From: Candidatus Nanopelagicales bacterium
Lineage (GTDB): Bacteria; Actinomycetota; Actinomycetes; Nanopelagicales; Nanopelagicaceae
NCBI GenBank assembly: GCA_030834095.1
Contig: JAURGA010000015.1
Coordinates: forward strand, 1 to 34,502
Direction: 5' to 3'
DNA length: 34,502 bases
Part shown: piece after piece, positions 21,861-34,045 of the stretch
Position numbering within the stretch: position 1 is the stretch's first letter
Layout: every line of letters starts with the position of its first letter
The notes under the pieces: generated by a model
What the model saw: the letters and a program-made list of their open reading frames with translations, nothing else
Databases searched by the model: none
Told to the model about the DNA's origin: nothing
Translations under genes and position numbers: made by a program

Positions 21861-22880
21861 GTGAAATTAACGAGATTAGCGGCGCAGCTTCTTTCTGCAG
21901 CGCTGGCTATCTCGCTTCTTCCACTATCAAGCGCTAACGCCGCACCCTCACTTAACGATGTCCGAACGCAGATACGAGTTCTCCAAGAGGAGGCATCAGC
22001 GGCCGGCGAAGCAGCCCAGCAGGCAAAGGTTGAATATGCCGCCCTGAACCGCAAACTCGAGTCAGTTCAGCGCCAAGCGGCCTCGGATGCCGCTGTGGTT
22101 GCAAAATTTAAAGATTCATTAGGCGCAATTGCCAATGAGCAATATAAGAATGGGGCGCTAAGTAGCAGCCTTGAGTTGCTCTTCTCCTCAGATCCAAGCC
22201 TCTTCTTATCTGCAGCAGGATCTCTAGAGTCTGTTACTAGAAAACAATCCCTGCAATTAAAGCAATATAGTGTTGCGAGACAGCGCCTCACTGCGACCTC
22301 ATTGACTGTGAATGACAAATTGGCTTTAGCCAAGCGGGCCCAGGAGCGATTCTTGGCTCAGGAGAAAGAGGTTAAAAATAAGTTAGCTGCGGCAGAGAAA
22401 CTCTTTAATTCACTTTCAAAAGCCGAGCGCAAACGACTAGCACGATTAAACAGTAAGGCCGAGAGTGCGGACAAGAAAAAATCTCTTGCAACAGCAGCAA
22501 AATCAAACCTGGGTTCAGGTCGGGGTTCTCTAGCCTTGCGATTCTCAATCAAACAGATAGGTGATCGCTATGTTTATGGTGCCGCTGGTCTGACTTACTG
22601 GGATTGCAGTGGCTTAACTAAACGAGCATTTGCAACCGCAGGAGTGTCACTTCCACATTCAGCGGCAGCTCAGATTCGATATGGAAAGCGAGTATCGCTT
22701 AATCAGTTGAAGCCTGGAGATCTGGTTTTCTTCGGCAAGAATCGCTACATCTCGCACGTTGGAATTTACATAAGAAAAGGCATGATGGTGAATGCGACTA
22801 GACCTGGATCCACTGTGAAAATTTCTAAATTCACACCTAGCTTTGGATCGCTCAGTTTCTACGGTGCCACTCGAATCTAG
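21861..22880 (+). CDS. Secreted NlpC/P60 peptidoglycan endopeptidase with coiled-coil stalk
   Basis: A 339-residue cell-wall hydrolase, like mycobacterial RipC (Rv2190c). A signal peptide (MKLTRLAAQLLSAALAISLLPLSSANA) is followed by a long helical Ala/Gln/Glu/Lys-rich stalk (about 30-205). The C-terminal NlpC/P60 domain has catalytic Cys249 (YWDCSGLTKRAF) and His299 (ISHVGIYI), with Asn311 (VNATRPG) in the third catalytic position. The start is GTG 21861, chosen because it gives a clean signal peptide and fits the TANNNT-N6 spacing. It overlaps pimB, and the pairing is conserved in actinobacteria. Confidence 0.93.
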   Translation: MKLTRLAAQLLSAALAISLLPLSSANAAPSLNDVRTQIRVLQEEASAAGEAAQQAKVEYAALNRKLESVQRQAASDAAVVAKFKDSLGAIANEQYKNGALSSSLELLFSSDPSLFLSAAGSLESVTRKQSLQLKQYSVARQRLTATSLTVNDKLALAKRAQERFLAQEKEVKNKLAAAEKLFNSLSKAERKRLARLNSKAESADKKKSLATAAKSNLGSGRGSLALRFSIKQIGDRYVYGAAGLTYWDCSGLTKRAFATAGVSLPHSAAAQIRYGKRVSLNQLKPGDLVFFGKNRYISHVGIYIRKGMMVNATRPGSTVKISKFTPSFGSLSFYGATRI

Positions 22881-24015
22881 CCGCCGAAAGATTCTTCTCG
22901 TCACAAATGACCTGGGGCCTCGATCTGGCGGAATTGAAACTTTCATTCATGGCTTATTGGAAAAATTAGATGGATCGCAAATCGTAATTCTTACCTCCGC
23001 CCAAGAGGGTGGTTTGGATTTTGATAAAGAGCTCAATCGTAAGTTCGGGCTAGTTGTTTATCGAGATCGATCAAAGGTTTTGCTTCCTACTCCCAGAGTT
23101 CTCCGCAGAACTAAAGAATTAATGCGCGCCCACGAAGCAACGACTATTTGGTTTGGGGCAGCAGCACCTCTCGCACTGATGGCGTCCAATCTACGTCGCG
23201 CCGGAGCGAAACGAATTATTGCCTTGACTCATGGCCACGAAGTTTGGTGGGCGAAATTACCGCTTTTCAATTTAGCAATGCGCCGGATAGGTAACTCATC
23301 TGATGTGCTTACCTATCTTGGACCGTATACAAAATCTGCCATTGCTAAATCCGTGGGCAAAAAAGTTTCGCTAGTCCAAATTGCTCCAGGAATTTCAACA
23401 GAACTCTTTCAACCTGGCGGCAAACCTGCAGACTTGATCGAGAAATATGAAATCGGAAATCGTCCAACCTTGTTATGTGTTGGCAGATTGGTCCACCGAA
23501 AAGGACAGGACCGACTGATTGAAGCGATGAGGAAGATCAAAATTGAGATTCCTGATGCGCTACTTTTATTTGTGGGAAGCGGACCTAGAGAAGCCCATCT
23601 AAGGAAGCTCATTCGAAAGTTTGGTTTAGAGAACGATGTGAAGTTACTTGGTCGCATTACATATGACCAACTACCAAAACATTTTTTACTTGGAGATGTT
23701 TTTGTCGCGCCATCAAGATCACGGCTAGGTGGGCTGGAGGTAGAGGGTTTAGGGATTGTTTATCTAGAAGCGAGTTCATCTGGACTTCCAGTAATCGCCG
23801 GAAACTCTGGTGGCGCACCTGACGCAGTGCTAAATAATAAGACTGGAATTGTCGTAGACGGTAATGATATTGATGAGATTTCAAAGGCCTGTATTTTGCT
23901 GCTGAATAACCCAGATCTCGCCGAAGAATTTGGAAGTGCCGGTCGAATCTGGGCAGTTGAAAATTGGAATTGGAATTTCTGGGGGAGCAAATTCAAGGAA
24001 GTTTTAGAAGTTTAG
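22864..24015 (+). CDS. pimB: GT4 glycosyltransferase, PimB'-like phosphatidylinositol-monomannoside mannosyltransferase
   Basis: A 383-residue GT-B enzyme probably adding the second mannose to phosphatidylinositol monomannoside from GDP-mannose. The N-terminus KILLVTNDLGPRSGGIETFI is the GT4 acceptor domain. The donor domain shows CVGRLVHRKGQDRLIEA and GGLEVEGLGIVYLEASSSGLPVIAGNSGGAPDAV, closely resembling PimB' (Rv2188c). The start is uncertain: GTG 22864 (17-base overlap with the hydrolase) is preferred over TTG 22843. Neither has an evident ribosome-binding site, so coupling to the upstream gene is likely. NlpC-pimB-fadD-SRPBCC order matches mycobacteria. Confidence 0.85.
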   Translation: MPLESSRRKILLVTNDLGPRSGGIETFIHGLLEKLDGSQIVILTSAQEGGLDFDKELNRKFGLVVYRDRSKVLLPTPRVLRRTKELMRAHEATTIWFGAAAPLALMASNLRRAGAKRIIALTHGHEVWWAKLPLFNLAMRRIGNSSDVLTYLGPYTKSAIAKSVGKKVSLVQIAPGISTELFQPGGKPADLIEKYEIGNRPTLLCVGRLVHRKGQDRLIEAMRKIKIEIPDALLLFVGSGPREAHLRKLIRKFGLENDVKLLGRITYDQLPKHFLLGDVFVAPSRSRLGGLEVEGLGIVYLEASSSGLPVIAGNSGGAPDAVLNNKTGIVVDGNDIDEISKACILLLNNPDLAEEFGSAGRIWAVENWNWNFWGSKFKEVLEV

Positions 24016-24552
24016 AATTTTGTTCTCAACGCCGATGGCAATTGCTTGCGAGCGGTTTCGAACTTCGAATTTTCGATAAATTGTTGCCAGGTGACTCTTG
24101 ATCGTAGCTTCAGTTAGAAATAGCTCTGAGGCCATAGCCTTTGCGGTTAAGCCCCGCGGTAAGAGCAGCAGAACTTCTTTCTCGCGTTTCGTGAGCGGGG
24201 TAAGCGCCGGCCGCTTCTCCTTGCTCAGCTCCAGAAAATACTTCGGGAAGCCGAGTAGTTCCTTTAACTGAACGAGAATCACTTCGGCAGAGTTGTCGGC
24301 GTCGAGCTGTTGGTTGATTTCAGATATTTCTCGGCGAATTTCGATTGAGAAAATAGTTTTAGAAGTCTCATCAGCAGCAGGAATTTCAGCGCTAAGCAGG
24401 TCGGAGAGGGTAGAAACCCTCGACCTTAACTCTCGTAAGAAGGCCCGATGCTCCGTGCCGCACTCGTTCCGTCCGGCTAGGACATCTAAACCATTGCCAA
24501 TATTGCTTAACTCTTCACTTATCTCGTCGTGTAGGCCACGAGCTGTTTTCAC
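24004..24552 (-). CDS. LuxR/NarL-type HTH protein with a histidine-kinase-DHp-like N-terminus
   Basis: A 182-residue predicted transcription factor. The C-terminus (about 115-182) is a NarL/LuxR helix-turn-helix: LTKREKEVLLLLPRGLTAKAMASELFLTEATIKSHLATIYRKF. The N-terminus has no receiver phosphorylation pattern. Instead it reads ARGLHDEISEELSNIGNGLDVLAG, which resembles the HisKA_3 phospho-acceptor helix of NarX-type kinases (His8-Asp9), followed by further helices. No ATPase domain is present. The GTG at 24552 overlaps the fadD stop (GTGA), so the two are translated together. The 3' end overlaps pimB by 12 bases. Confidence 0.8.
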   Translation of the reverse strand: MKTARGLHDEISEELSNIGNGLDVLAGRNECGTEHRAFLRELRSRVSTLSDLLSAEIPAADETSKTIFSIEIRREISEINQQLDADNSAEVILVQLKELLGFPKYFLELSKEKRPALTPLTKREKEVLLLLPRGLTAKAMASELFLTEATIKSHLATIYRKFEVRNRSQAIAIGVENKILNF

Positions 24553-26378
24553 TTAAAGAGCGCTTCGATTTCCTCTGCGAATTCGGCAGCAACTACATGT
24601 CGCTTGACTGACATTTTTGCAGTGAGCTGACCGCCAGCAATTGTGAAGTCAGTTGGCAAGATCGTGAATTTACGAATTGATTCAGCGCGGCTTACTGCTT
24701 TATTCGCCTCATCAATCGCAGTTTGAATTACTGAATTCAAATCTGGATCTTTGGTCAGCGCAGCGATAGTTGCACCTTCCTTCTTATTCGCGGTAATCCA
24801 ATTCTTAATTGCATCTGGATCAATTGTCACTAGCGCTGCGATAAATGGCTTGTTGTCACCAACGACCATGCATTGACTTACTAGTGGGTGCGAGCGGACT
24901 CGATCTTCTAGCACGGCAGGAGCAACATTCTTTCCACCGGAAGTAACAATCAACTCTTTCTTACGTCCAACAATTGATAAGAAGCCTGCGTGATCAAGTG
25001 TTCCAAGGTCACCGCTCTTGAAGAAGCCATCGCTAGTAAAGGTTTCGCTATTGGCGGCATCGTTCTGCCAGTAACCGTTCATAACGATGTCACCTTTGAT
25101 TAATACTTCGCCATCTTCGGCAATCTTCACTGTTGTTCCTGGAAGTGGGCGTCCCACGGATCCAACTCGTTGCGCTGAAGAAAGGTTTAGTGTTGCACCT
25201 GCGGTTGTTTCAGTTAAGCCGTAACCTTCCAAAACATTTACACCAGCACCGCGATAGAAGTGTCCAAGACGTGCACCTAGCGGCGCACCACCAGAGATTG
25301 CAGCTTCTACTCGGCCACCCATTCCAGCTCTAATCTTTGAATACACAAGTTTGTCGAAGAGAGCATGTTTAATTATTAATCCAAGGCTCTTCTTCTTTGA
25401 ATCCTGCGCCTCGCTGTAAGCGATGGCAACATCTGCAGCTTTGCGGAAGATGGAACCCTTGCCAGCAGCTTCAGCCTTTGCTTCGGCACCGTTGTAAATT
25501 TTCTCAAAGATTCTTGGAACTGCCAGAACGAAGGTTGGCTTAAATGTGCCAAGGTCTGCTGGAAGTCTGGTTATGTCTCCGCAGTGGGCAAGATGAAGAC
25601 CAGCCGTAATTGCGCCAACTTCAACCATGCGACCAAAGACGTGAGCAATCGGAAGAAATAGGAGAGTTGATCCACCAGGCTTTAAGAATAAATCACTTGC
25701 ACCTTGGACGACATTTCCGCACTCAGAGAGAAAGTTCCCGTGTGTAAGTTGAACGCCCTTAGGTTTTCCAGTTGTTCCTGATGTGTAGATAAGGGTTGCA
25801 AGAGATTTTGGATTAGGTTGATTTCTGCGAGTTTCGACATCGCTATCTGAAATCTTGCTTCCTAGATTTGTAAGTTCATCGAGAGCGCCATCTGTAATAA
25901 CCCAAATATTCTTACAAGCAGATGTCAAAACCGGAGTTACAACTTCTTTTAGTGCTGGTGTTTCAACAATGATAGCTACGGCGCCAGAGTCATTGAGAAT
26001 CCATTCGACCTGCTCGGCACTTGAAGTTTCATAAATAGGGACCGAAACTGCCCCGGCATACCAGATTGCAAAGTCCAGAATCGTCCATTCATATCTAGTC
26101 TTAGCCATTATTGCTACGCGATCACCAACTGCAATATTTGCGGCCATCAGACCCTTTGCGACCGATCGAACTTCACTATCGAATTCTTTAGCAGTAACCC
26201 CCTGCCATCCTTCGCCAAGCGGACGGGATAGCGTGATTCGGTTAGGTTCATTTGCTGCGCGATTTGCAACAAGGTCAGAGAGATTGCCAGATATAGCTGG
26301 CGGGACGATTGCCGGTACTGTGTATTGATCCATAAGGTGAACGCTATCGCCGAGGCGACCATTATTGGAAGATGTCAT
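24549..26378 (-). CDS. fadD: Long-chain fatty-acid-CoA ligase (FadD15-like)
   Basis: Activates fatty acids to acyl-CoA through an acyl-adenylate. At 609 aa it is full length for the family. The AMP-binding P-loop reads LATLIYTSGTTGKPKGVQLTHGN. The adenine motif region is NVLEGYGLTETTAGATLN, the hinge region SGDLGTLDHAGFLSIVGRKKELIV, and the C-terminal lysine region LTAKMSVKRHVV. The start at ATG 26378 is supported by a TANNNT-N6 promoter; a later ATG (MDQYTVP) is less likely. FadD15 next to pimB and an SRPBCC gene is the mycobacterial arrangement. It is coupled to a downstream LuxR gene. Confidence 0.94.
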   Translation of the reverse strand: MTSSNNGRLGDSVHLMDQYTVPAIVPPAISGNLSDLVANRAANEPNRITLSRPLGEGWQGVTAKEFDSEVRSVAKGLMAANIAVGDRVAIMAKTRYEWTILDFAIWYAGAVSVPIYETSSAEQVEWILNDSGAVAIIVETPALKEVVTPVLTSACKNIWVITDGALDELTNLGSKISDSDVETRRNQPNPKSLATLIYTSGTTGKPKGVQLTHGNFLSECGNVVQGASDLFLKPGGSTLLFLPIAHVFGRMVEVGAITAGLHLAHCGDITRLPADLGTFKPTFVLAVPRIFEKIYNGAEAKAEAAGKGSIFRKAADVAIAYSEAQDSKKKSLGLIIKHALFDKLVYSKIRAGMGGRVEAAISGGAPLGARLGHFYRGAGVNVLEGYGLTETTAGATLNLSSAQRVGSVGRPLPGTTVKIAEDGEVLIKGDIVMNGYWQNDAANSETFTSDGFFKSGDLGTLDHAGFLSIVGRKKELIVTSGGKNVAPAVLEDRVRSHPLVSQCMVVGDNKPFIAALVTIDPDAIKNWITANKKEGATIAALTKDPDLNSVIQTAIDEANKAVSRAESIRKFTILPTDFTIAGGQLTAKMSVKRHVVAAEFAEEIEALFK

Positions 26379-26390
26379 CTAAAGAATTTA
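26379..26390 (-). promoter_or_regulatory. Leaderless -10 promoter of fadD-luxR
   Basis: On the minus strand TAAATT (plus coordinates 26385-26390) is followed by six bases and then ATG 26378. Confidence 0.7.
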
Positions 26391-26394
26391 CGGG

Positions 26395-26406
26395 TAACCT
26401 TGGCGT
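26395..26406 (+). promoter_or_regulatory. Leaderless -10 promoter of the SRPBCC gene
   Basis: TAACCT (26395-26400) is followed by six bases and then ATG 26407. Only four bases separate it from the divergent fadD -10 box. Confidence 0.7.
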
Positions 26407-26844
26407 ATGAGCGACATTTCTGAGAATTTGATAACAATTGAAGCCCCAATCGGTGAAGTAGTTGCAGTTTTGACCGATCTTGCTTCTTATCCAACTTGGT
26501 CAACCGCAATCAAAAGCGTTGAGGTCCAGGATAAAGATGCAAGTGGCCGCGCTACAAAAGTAAAGATGTCGATTGATGCCGGTGTAATGAAGGATAGAGT
26601 GATTTTGGATTACGACTGGAGCAAATCCCCAGCTGAAATTTCCTTCGCACTTGATGATGCGGACCTGCTCACTGAGATGTCTGGAATATACGAAATAGCA
26701 GATAACGGCGATGACACAACAACTGTGAAATACCAATTAGCGGTTGCACTTTCAATGCCAGTTCCGGCGATGATGCGCCAGAAAGCTGAGCGCGCAACGA
26801 TCGATCTTGCACTCAGCCAATTAAAAACTAAACTCGAAGGCTAA
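26407..26844 (+). CDS. SRPBCC (START/polyketide-cyclase-like) family protein
   Basis: A 145-residue helix-grip lipid/ligand-binding protein: ITIEAPIGEVVAVLTDLASYPTWSTAIKSVEVQDKDASGRATKV at the N-terminus and a long C-terminal amphipathic helix (AERATIDLALSQLKTKLEG). Homologues (Rv2185c-like) lie beside fadD15 and pimB in mycobacteria, which fits a role with fatty acyl or lipid ligands, but the ligand is unknown. It is divergent from fadD across 28 bases. The downstream glucokinase gene begins six bases after its stop, so the two are probably co-transcribed. Confidence 0.88.
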   Translation: MSDISENLITIEAPIGEVVAVLTDLASYPTWSTAIKSVEVQDKDASGRATKVKMSIDAGVMKDRVILDYDWSKSPAEISFALDDADLLTEMSGIYEIADNGDDTTTVKYQLAVALSMPVPAMMRQKAERATIDLALSQLKTKLEG

Positions 26845-33730: not shown

Positions 33731-34045
33731 TTAGTCGAGATGCTTGTCACAATATCTCTGGCCATTTTCGCCAATTTTGCTATGTGAACAGTCAACGTTC
33801 AATTTATCAAATGAGCCATCACCAAAGTGTGTCCGGTAGGCCAGGGCGAGCAAGACACGAATATTTGTGTCGCCATCAGATTTAATCCCAAAGGCTCGGG
33901 CCATTCTGGAAACCGTATTTTCAATAACCTTTTCACTATGAGAAGTCGCTTTTGCAATAGCAGCATTTGATAAACCATCACAGAGATGATCGGCGACTAA
34001 ATGCTCAAATGGCGTCAATTCTCGAGACATAATCTTAATATCCAT
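33731..34045 (-). CDS. Small LuxR-type HTH protein with Cys/His-rich tail
   Basis: A 104-residue protein. Residues 7-70 form a LuxR-like helix-turn-helix (LTPFEHLVADHLCDGLSNAAIAKATSHSEKVIENTVSRMARAFGI) with no receiver or sensor domain. The tail contains Cys86-x-His88 and Cys99-x2-His102 (DCSHSKIGENGQRYCDKH), a possible zinc knuckle. ATG 34045 and ATG 34030 (MSREL) are both possible. TAATCT lies four bases before the first, so the promoter rule does not decide. It diverges from an enoyl-CoA hydratase gene. Confidence 0.75.
   Translation of the reverse strand: MDIKIMSRELTPFEHLVADHLCDGLSNAAIAKATSHSEKVIENTVSRMARAFGIKSDGDTNIRVLLALAYRTHFGDGSFDKLNVDCSHSKIGENGQRYCDKHLD

Follow-up and report, generated by a model that had tools for sequence, protein, structure and literature searches.

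A LuxR-type regulator beside fadD in Candidatus Nanopelagicaceae that probably descends from a two-component system

The window, by which we mean the whole stretch of 34,502 nucleotides from a Candidatus Nanopelagicales bacterium that was analysed, holds a short LuxR-type regulator gene between a fadD-like and a pimB'-like gene. Comparison with the same locus in related genera shows, as far as sequences can tell, that this gene descends from a complete two-component system which lay at this very place. We consider it probable that this system was of the DesK/NarL type, and that its descendant is now a one-component regulator dimerised by a DHp hairpin, without receiver or kinase. The regulator is of the one-component type, but it is built from the leftovers of a kinase and a response regulator. 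The usual view is that one-component systems gave rise to two-component ones. The direction here is the reverse, with the ancestral type, a mixed sister genus and the end products all found at one locus, and it was taken more than once. In every case the kinase hairpin has been retained and its chemistry lost or relaxed. The locus offers a clean test of the roles that DHp domains may have besides phosphotransfer, a natural series of junctions for the building of receiver-free regulators, and a case of regulation that was simplified in small genomes without loss of output. In the open-licence literature we found no account of a fusion of a kinase DHp to an HTH, of a collapse from two components to one, or of such a system in Nanopelagicales, and the available part of PMC9239204 describes no such fusion or collapse.

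The regulator gene and its neighbours

The gene (24004..24552 with its stop; 182 aa, GTG start) is on the minus strand, which the initial annotation of this open reading frame had left unsaid. The last two bases of the GTG and the base that follows form the TGA stop of fadD, and this GTGA overlap is found in 19 of 21 orthologues; the exceptions are L018, where an ATG stands a few bases after the fadD stop, and L019, which has no fadD on its contig. An in-frame TAA immediately 5' of the GTG fixes the start in the window's genome, whereas several orthologues have a frame that stays open beyond this point. The orthologues come from a whole-genome search of 60 relatives, which gave 21 full-length proteins; every one of them belongs to g1, the genus of the window. 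Of 173 relatives in a scan of named genomes 80 were retained, and the match runs over most of the protein in 19 of these (L032-L050) and lies chiefly in the HTH region in the others.

Pfam places a GerE domain at residues 119-172 (E 2.1e-16). Among the nine Pfam families that the window protein matches at E<=10 there is no receiver or HATPase family, nor is there one among the 25 families listed, out of 39, for the 21 orthologues, and the protein is not a match in the Response_reg search of its own genome. The N-terminal part contains ARGLHDEISEELSNIGNGLDVLAG (residues 4-27), and the HisKA_3 match of the window protein alone is below threshold (14.5 bits, cut-off 24, E 0.052), while 16 of the 21 genus orthologues match HisKA_3 at E<=1, the best of them at 3.2e-6. 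The initial annotation had proposed a kinase-like N-terminal helix of the HisKA_3 kind with a His8-Asp9 pair, and the orthologue scan and the profile scores bear this out; the NarL-type HTH, the lack of receiver and ATPase and the overlap with fadD that it described are likewise confirmed. For annotators there is a caution in this, as a sub-threshold HisKA_3 match on a short LuxR protein can be genuine.

The protein begins with a kinase-derived, DHp-like helical hairpin (residues 2-57; 24382..24549, minus strand), delimited by hhalign to the kinases of the locus and by AF2 helices, which is followed by a middle segment (residues 58-118; 24199..24381, minus strand) with two predicted helices (70-85 and 91-99). 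The C-terminus (residues 90-182; 24007..24285, minus strand) appears by hhalign and the Pfam GerE match to be derived from a response regulator and includes the NarL/GerE HTH (119-172). Invariant in all 21 orthologues are H8, D9, L15, G27, R36, R40, L49 and L53 of the hairpin and F68, S69, I72, R73, I76, F102, P103 and L107 of the middle segment. The AF2 model of the full protein (pLDDT 86.9, pTM 0.82) has helices at 4-27, 33-55, 70-85 and 91-99 besides the HTH, and its ten-residue blocks from 11 to 50 have mean pLDDT values of 92-96. A model of residues 1-118 reached a pLDDT of 76.9 and a best Foldseek E of 1.0. Neither model had a Foldseek match at E<=0.001, and the lists from the whole-protein structure search were filled chiefly by HTH-bearing proteins.

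It is extremely unlikely that the gene is a decaying remnant on its way to loss. The N-terminal and middle parts do vary in length and sequence, and there are collapsed forms of down to 114 aa (L030, with a mechanically set start), but the regulator is under purifying selection (for example dN 0.017 and dS 0.225 against L002), with dN/dS well under 1 in every pair for which dS could be estimated, the gene is open in 27 of 27 g1 genomes, and the HTH is strongly conserved among the orthologues.

The upstream partner is a fadD-like acyl-CoA ligase gene (24549..26378, minus strand; AMP-binding, E 2.4e-78), whose stop overlaps the GTG of the regulator. On the other side a convergent pimB'-like mannosyltransferase gene (22843..24015, plus strand) shares a 12-bp tail-to-tail overlap with the regulator; its match, PDB 3oka (E 6.3e-86), is a phosphatidylinositol monomannoside mannosyltransferase. 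Divergent from fadD stands an SRPBCC/polyketide-cyclase-like gene (26407..26844, plus strand; Polyketide_cyc2, E 3.9e-11), a conserved flank that recurs in L051-L061, except in L059 where the contig starts inside fadD, and in the g1 and g8 loci that were read far enough. Further neighbours belong by Pfam to NlpC/P60 and ROK, and together with the ligase, the polyketide-cyclase-like and the pimB'-like gene they point to a region for envelope lipids. The region of fadD15 and pimB' in Mycobacterium tuberculosis presumably has a similar gene order. The linkage to fadD is conserved among the orthologues, a point that the initial annotation had proposed to check, and suggests that the regulator may sense fatty-acid status.

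The parent genes at the same locus

In other genera of Ca. Nanopelagicaceae the locus reads fadD, a soluble DesK-type kinase and a NarL-type response regulator in one direction, followed by the convergent pimB'-like gene. The records with this two-gene form carry the titles Ca. Planktophila, Ca. Nanopelagicus and Ca. Nanopelagicaceae. Kinase and response regulator are adjacent in 52 loci, in 51 of which fadD is visible (L024 is cut by the contig end). The kinases are soluble proteins of 157-219 aa, one of them cut by a contig end, and the regulators have 190-236 aa. All seven locus kinases that were scanned with Pfam exceed the HisKA_3 cut-off (E 1.3e-6 to 2.5e-11); HATPase_c is found at E<0.001 in five of the seven, over the cut-off in one, and has no match in two. 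No sensor domain was found in these seven kinases of the ancestral type. Crystal structures of the DesK type (YocF/DesK) are matched by the profile of the locus kinases with E values from 4e-20 to 6e-20. In 25 of 25 kinases, chosen from the 52, the phosphoacceptor His and the Gln at H+5 are invariant, and so are the acidic Asp, the phospho-Asp and the Lys of the receiver in 25 of 25 regulators, also chosen from the 52. The ancestors thus look functional, and the pairs look like working DesK/NarL-type systems.

Both halves of the window protein can be aligned to these parents by hhalign. Residues 2-78 align to residues 16-92 of the 25 kinases with 31% identity (E 1.1e-14), and the match ends at kinase residue 92. 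Residues 90-181 align to residues 107-201 of the 25 regulators (E 1.5e-34) and the match starts past the receiver core, with the likeness over residues 90-118 resting solely on an extension of the HTH match. When residues 1-62 of the orthologue profile are compared alone with the kinases the score is 94.2 (E 1.3e-17), whereas the highest of 100 column-permuted controls is 21.1. The middle segment alone scores 15.7 against the kinases and 11.3 against the regulators, where permuted controls reach 19.9 and 16.4, so that by itself it shows no significant likeness to kinase or regulator, although its ends fall within the two whole-protein matches. A chance likeness of a helix that contains LHD was considered, and is ruled out by the profile scores against permuted controls and by the synteny of the locus.

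The same build is seen in all six groups into which 40 of 41 collapsed proteins fall (L182 is ungrouped): they match DHp at the N-terminus and the HTH at the C-terminus. The junction differs between groups: in the long form, as in the pair L154/L157, the regulator part begins near residue 100-106, whereas the remaining groups have it near 138-148. The initial annotation had seen in the gene a kinase helix fused to an output domain, or a decayed fusion, and as to descent this stands, as the parents are adjacent at the locus and the profiles cover both halves; a decayed fusion of kinase helix and output domain is strongly supported by these comparisons. Since the parents lie next to each other in the order kinase, regulator, the simplest route would be an in-frame loss between DHp and HTH, from the ATP-binding domain of the kinase through most of the receiver, which would leave hairpin and HTH in one protein. 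We infer that this was a single contiguous deletion.

Like kinases of the DesK/YocF type (HisKA_3, PF07730), the window protein has a DHp hairpin with His-Asp, which is homologous to that of the locus kinases; unlike them it lacks an ATP-binding domain and the Gln at H+5, has a shorter N-terminal part of helix 1 and is joined to an HTH. Regulators of the NarL/FixJ type (Response_reg and GerE) have in common with it the C-terminal HTH and the stretch preceding this, for which its homologue is the locus regulator, but it lacks the receiver core and the phospho-Asp. LuxR-type one-component and single-domain GerE proteins are likewise one protein with an HTH output and with no partner kinase found; in LuxR-type one-component regulators, however, the partner domain binds a ligand, where the window protein has the DHp hairpin of a kinase. 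Phosphotransferases of the Spo0B type resemble the hairpin in having a DHp fold without kinase activity, but unlike the window protein they keep an ATPase-like domain and have no DNA-binding domain.

The old kinase and regulator could have moved elsewhere in the genome, which is 98% complete by the figure of the tool, but this is ruled out by searches with PF07730, GerE and Response_reg. The window protein is the sole HisKA_3 match in its genome, and GerE is found over the cut-off nowhere else in it. HATPase_c is found in six proteins of this genome: two are gyrase-type subunits, and the other four are kinases (three HisKA and one PdtaS-like HisKA_2), each with a phosphoacceptor domain of its own. 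The four response regulators of the genome have Trans_reg_C (three) or ANTAR (one) outputs. The old pair thus appears to have been lost rather than moved. The only other GerE-like place in this genome at E<=0.01 is a 104-aa ORF in the window (33731-34045, minus strand) with an HTH below the threshold (20.4 bits, cut-off 23.5).

Over the 27 g1 genomes HisKA_3 exceeds the cut-off twice, in a separate 377-aa frame of G009 and in the fused gene of G001. Four g1 genomes have no match at E<=10, and since two of these, G013 and G019, hold a long-form gene, the model is not sensitive to it. Separate HisKA_3-like frames of 377-384 aa were noted in a few g1 genomes (G009:C38:36535-36726, G025:C38:1381-1566, G023:C45:2041-2226), over the cut-off in G009 alone and weaker in G025, G023 and a few others.

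Survey of the family and number of collapses

The pimB'-like gene served as the anchor of the locus and was matched in 270 of 296 genomes of the family, in part of which the locus was read, with genera g10, g36, g38 and g40 outside. All 27 g1 genomes have the collapsed form (26 in the set of 92 loci, and L014). In g8 it is found in 14 of the 27 genomes read, the other 13 having the two-gene form, and in eleven other genera all 28 genomes read have two genes. The 52 two-gene loci are those of the 13 g8 genomes, of these 28 genomes and of 11 named contigs (L051-L061), some of which repeat genomes with G handles and which are counted among the 52 loci and not among the 28 genomes. Six rows were dropped: L155, whose contig ends in a receiver-bearing regulator so that its kinase cannot be read, L156 and L131, which come from the same genomes as L023 and L015, L126 and L128, which are other LuxR genes, and L129, which is a wrong stretch. 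L014 is part of the alignment of 21 orthologues and absent from the trees and the 92-locus set. An assembly artefact can be excluded, as the collapsed form recurs in 27 g1 and 14 g8 assemblies.

The tree of the pimB'-like protein (GT) holds 69 of the 92 loci (L029, L054, L130 and L184-L203 are left out) and needs at least two state changes; a single change is enough in none of 200 bootstrap trees, whose 5-95% range is two. The fadD tree, made by a quick method with 82 of the 92 loci (without L019, L022-L025, L027-L029, L161 and L162), also gives two, and in it twelve collapsed g8 genes group with g1 (support 80). If collapse is irreversible, the GT topology implies three events, in g1, in the twelve g8 genes and in the pair L154/L157. 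The two trees thus disagree on a common origin of the twelve g8 genes with g1, and as the GT supports are weak as well (81/50 for the g1 clade, 93/54 for the twelve-gene g8 clade), the number of events is uncertain. That the collapse happened two or more times is nevertheless a safe conclusion from these trees, and a regain of the two-gene form in g8 by transfer is conceivable.

The fadD genes of g8 that stand beside an intact two-component system form a distinct branch (L161-L179 against L160, L163, L166-L183). Compared with the window fadD over nearly the full length they are 68-70% identical, against 75-79% for the others, which hints at a replacement or a faster evolution of the whole block. 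Four public MAG records titled Bifidobacterium breve (L032, L034, L051 and L060) carry the locus, and their titles look wrong; L051 and L060 group with freshwater Nanopelagicaceae-like genomes in both trees. In several loci, for example G146, G129, G121 and G147 of g8 and G022 and G015 of g1, the match to the pimB'-like gene has one in-frame stop, perhaps because it runs beyond the true start.

His8-Asp9, the dyad and the possible mode of action

The pair His8-Asp9 (24526..24531, minus strand) aligns to H22-D23 of the locus kinases and is the counterpart of the phosphoacceptor His and its neighbour. In the combined alignment 20 of 20 long forms have it at the corresponding position, and the orthologue alignment, which adds L014, brings this to 21 of 21, so that the retention the initial annotation had asked about is complete in the long form. 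Among residues 2-57 of this form His8 is the slowest and Asp9 the fourth-slowest site. Outside it the pair occurs in only one of 20 other collapsed forms (L026) and L125 retains the His only; the other 18 have no His at this position, four g8 forms having Tyr there, although the start codons of the short collapsed forms were set mechanically and the absence of His in them rests on the ORFs as called. Gln at H+5, present in 25 of 25 locus kinases, is found in none of the 21 long forms.

It could be argued that the pair is a retained phosphoacceptor, His8 being phosphorylated by a kinase in trans or by back-transfer from a receiver, which would switch the HTH. The invariance of the pair, which includes four orthologues with GAT for Asp9, three of them also with CAT for His8, speaks for this, and the genome does hold three HisKA kinases and one HisKA_2 kinase. 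We find it very unlikely all the same, as there is no HisKA_3 kinase in the window's genome, and a separate protein over the cut-off is found in only one (G009) of the 27 g1 genomes, so that phosphorylation in trans would have no obvious donor. In addition the Gln at H+5 is gone, the His is missing from most of the other collapsed forms, and no receiver is left in the protein to take the phosphate. The phosphorylation in trans that the initial annotation thought possible has accordingly found no backing.

A dimer clamp is what the pattern of loss and retention fits best. Hairpin and HTH are kept each time while the His is mostly gone outside the long-form clade, which fits dimerisation, and as the hairpin is the sole part of the kinase kept in all six groups, even without His, it probably acts as a permanent clamp for a pair of HTH domains. 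For the long form dimerisation alone is no sufficient explanation of the invariant His8-Asp9. A study of DesK (PMC5231405) suggests a reason that is not chemical: there His188 is reported as buried and bonded to its mate, and Asp189 and a DHp pocket as bound by Arg84 and Phe82 of the regulator in one state. By analogy, His8 could pair across the dimer core as in the phosphatase state of DesK, while Asp9 and the DHp pocket bind F68 and R73 as possible intramolecular partners and so lock the dimer. The invariance of F68, S69, I72 and R73, and the loss of the pair from 19 of the 20 collapsed forms outside the clade, agree with this. The association of the pair with the middle segment is however confined to one clade and hence is a single phylogenetic contrast, F68 and R73 do not descend from a conserved Phe and Arg in the locus regulators, and in L154/L157 the His is missing although the middle segment is about as long. 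Such a docking is for these reasons somewhat unlikely.

Codons 4-9 of the gene contain a dyad, TCGTG-N5-CACGA (24527..24541, assigned to neither strand), the arms of which are conserved at synonymous sites. It is found in 15 of the 21 fused genes, or 15 of 17 close relatives, and in none of the 23 locus kinase genes that can be aligned at these codons (two of 25 cannot). In the 17 close relatives the synonymously conserved codons 4, 5, 8 and 9 coincide with the arms and the loop varies; leaving the start codon aside, none of the 48 fourfold columns of the gene is more conserved than the third bases of codons 4 and 5, and His8 is CAC in 16 and Asp9 GAC in 15 of the 17, against 38% and 22% in the codon use of fadD. 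The conservation of His8-Asp9 might thus be a by-product of constraint on the nucleotides of the start region, that is on the dyad or the coupling signal, with an N-terminus that is a plain coiled coil. These figures from the close relatives are in its favour. L018-L021, four deeper orthologues, keep the pair without the dyad and with other codons, L15, G27, R36, R40, L49 and L53 outside the block are invariant too, and the kinase homology spans the whole hairpin, all of which makes it an unlikely explanation. Because of L018-L021 a constraint on the amino acids remains likely, although on fewer taxa than 21.

The dyad occurs once in the window's genome, and the copy in the gene is the sole one in 13 of the 15 genomes that bear it. 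It was also considered as the sign of a regulon, which is rejected, as the 27 g1 genomes together contain 24 copies of the pattern and 21 of the backwards control, so that elsewhere it is no commoner than by chance. It is possible that it is an autoregulatory operator or an RNA element; when the RNA of the start region was folded for six sequences, they shared no structure.

We take it as most likely that the DHp-dimerised regulator works as follows. The hairpin would form a two-fold four-helix dimer that holds the two HTH domains ready to bind a dyad, DNA binding would no longer await phosphorylation of a receiver, and the amount of regulator would be set by translational coupling to fadD. 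The regulator probably acts on its own fadD operon, and it might conceivably do so through the dyad in its own first codons. A fuller version of this, in which streamlined freshwater actinobacteria have repeatedly made a new type of one-component regulator, a DHp-dimerised HTH, from a working two-component system, and the one in the lineage of the window binds a private dyad in its first codons and is held or switched by its new middle segment docking on the old His-Asp face without any phosphate, is in our opinion rather unlikely as a whole.

Synonymous conservation is raised over 24515-24580 of the window, which covers approximately the last codons of fadD and the first eleven of the regulator. 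Since it is also up in the last fadD codons, part of the signal belongs to a start-region block, and it looks as if the coupling signal itself were selected. A scan for promoters and terminators was uninformative (2 promoter-like sites against a mean of 2.9, and 6 terminator-like sites against 2.4), and no operator was evident on reading the region between fadD and the SRPBCC-like gene. In this region (26333-26407 of the window, and in L034-L061) boxes similar to TANNNT, such as TAGCGT and TAACCT, precede the start codons by a few bases in many of the loci that were read, as would be expected of leaderless divergent promoters.
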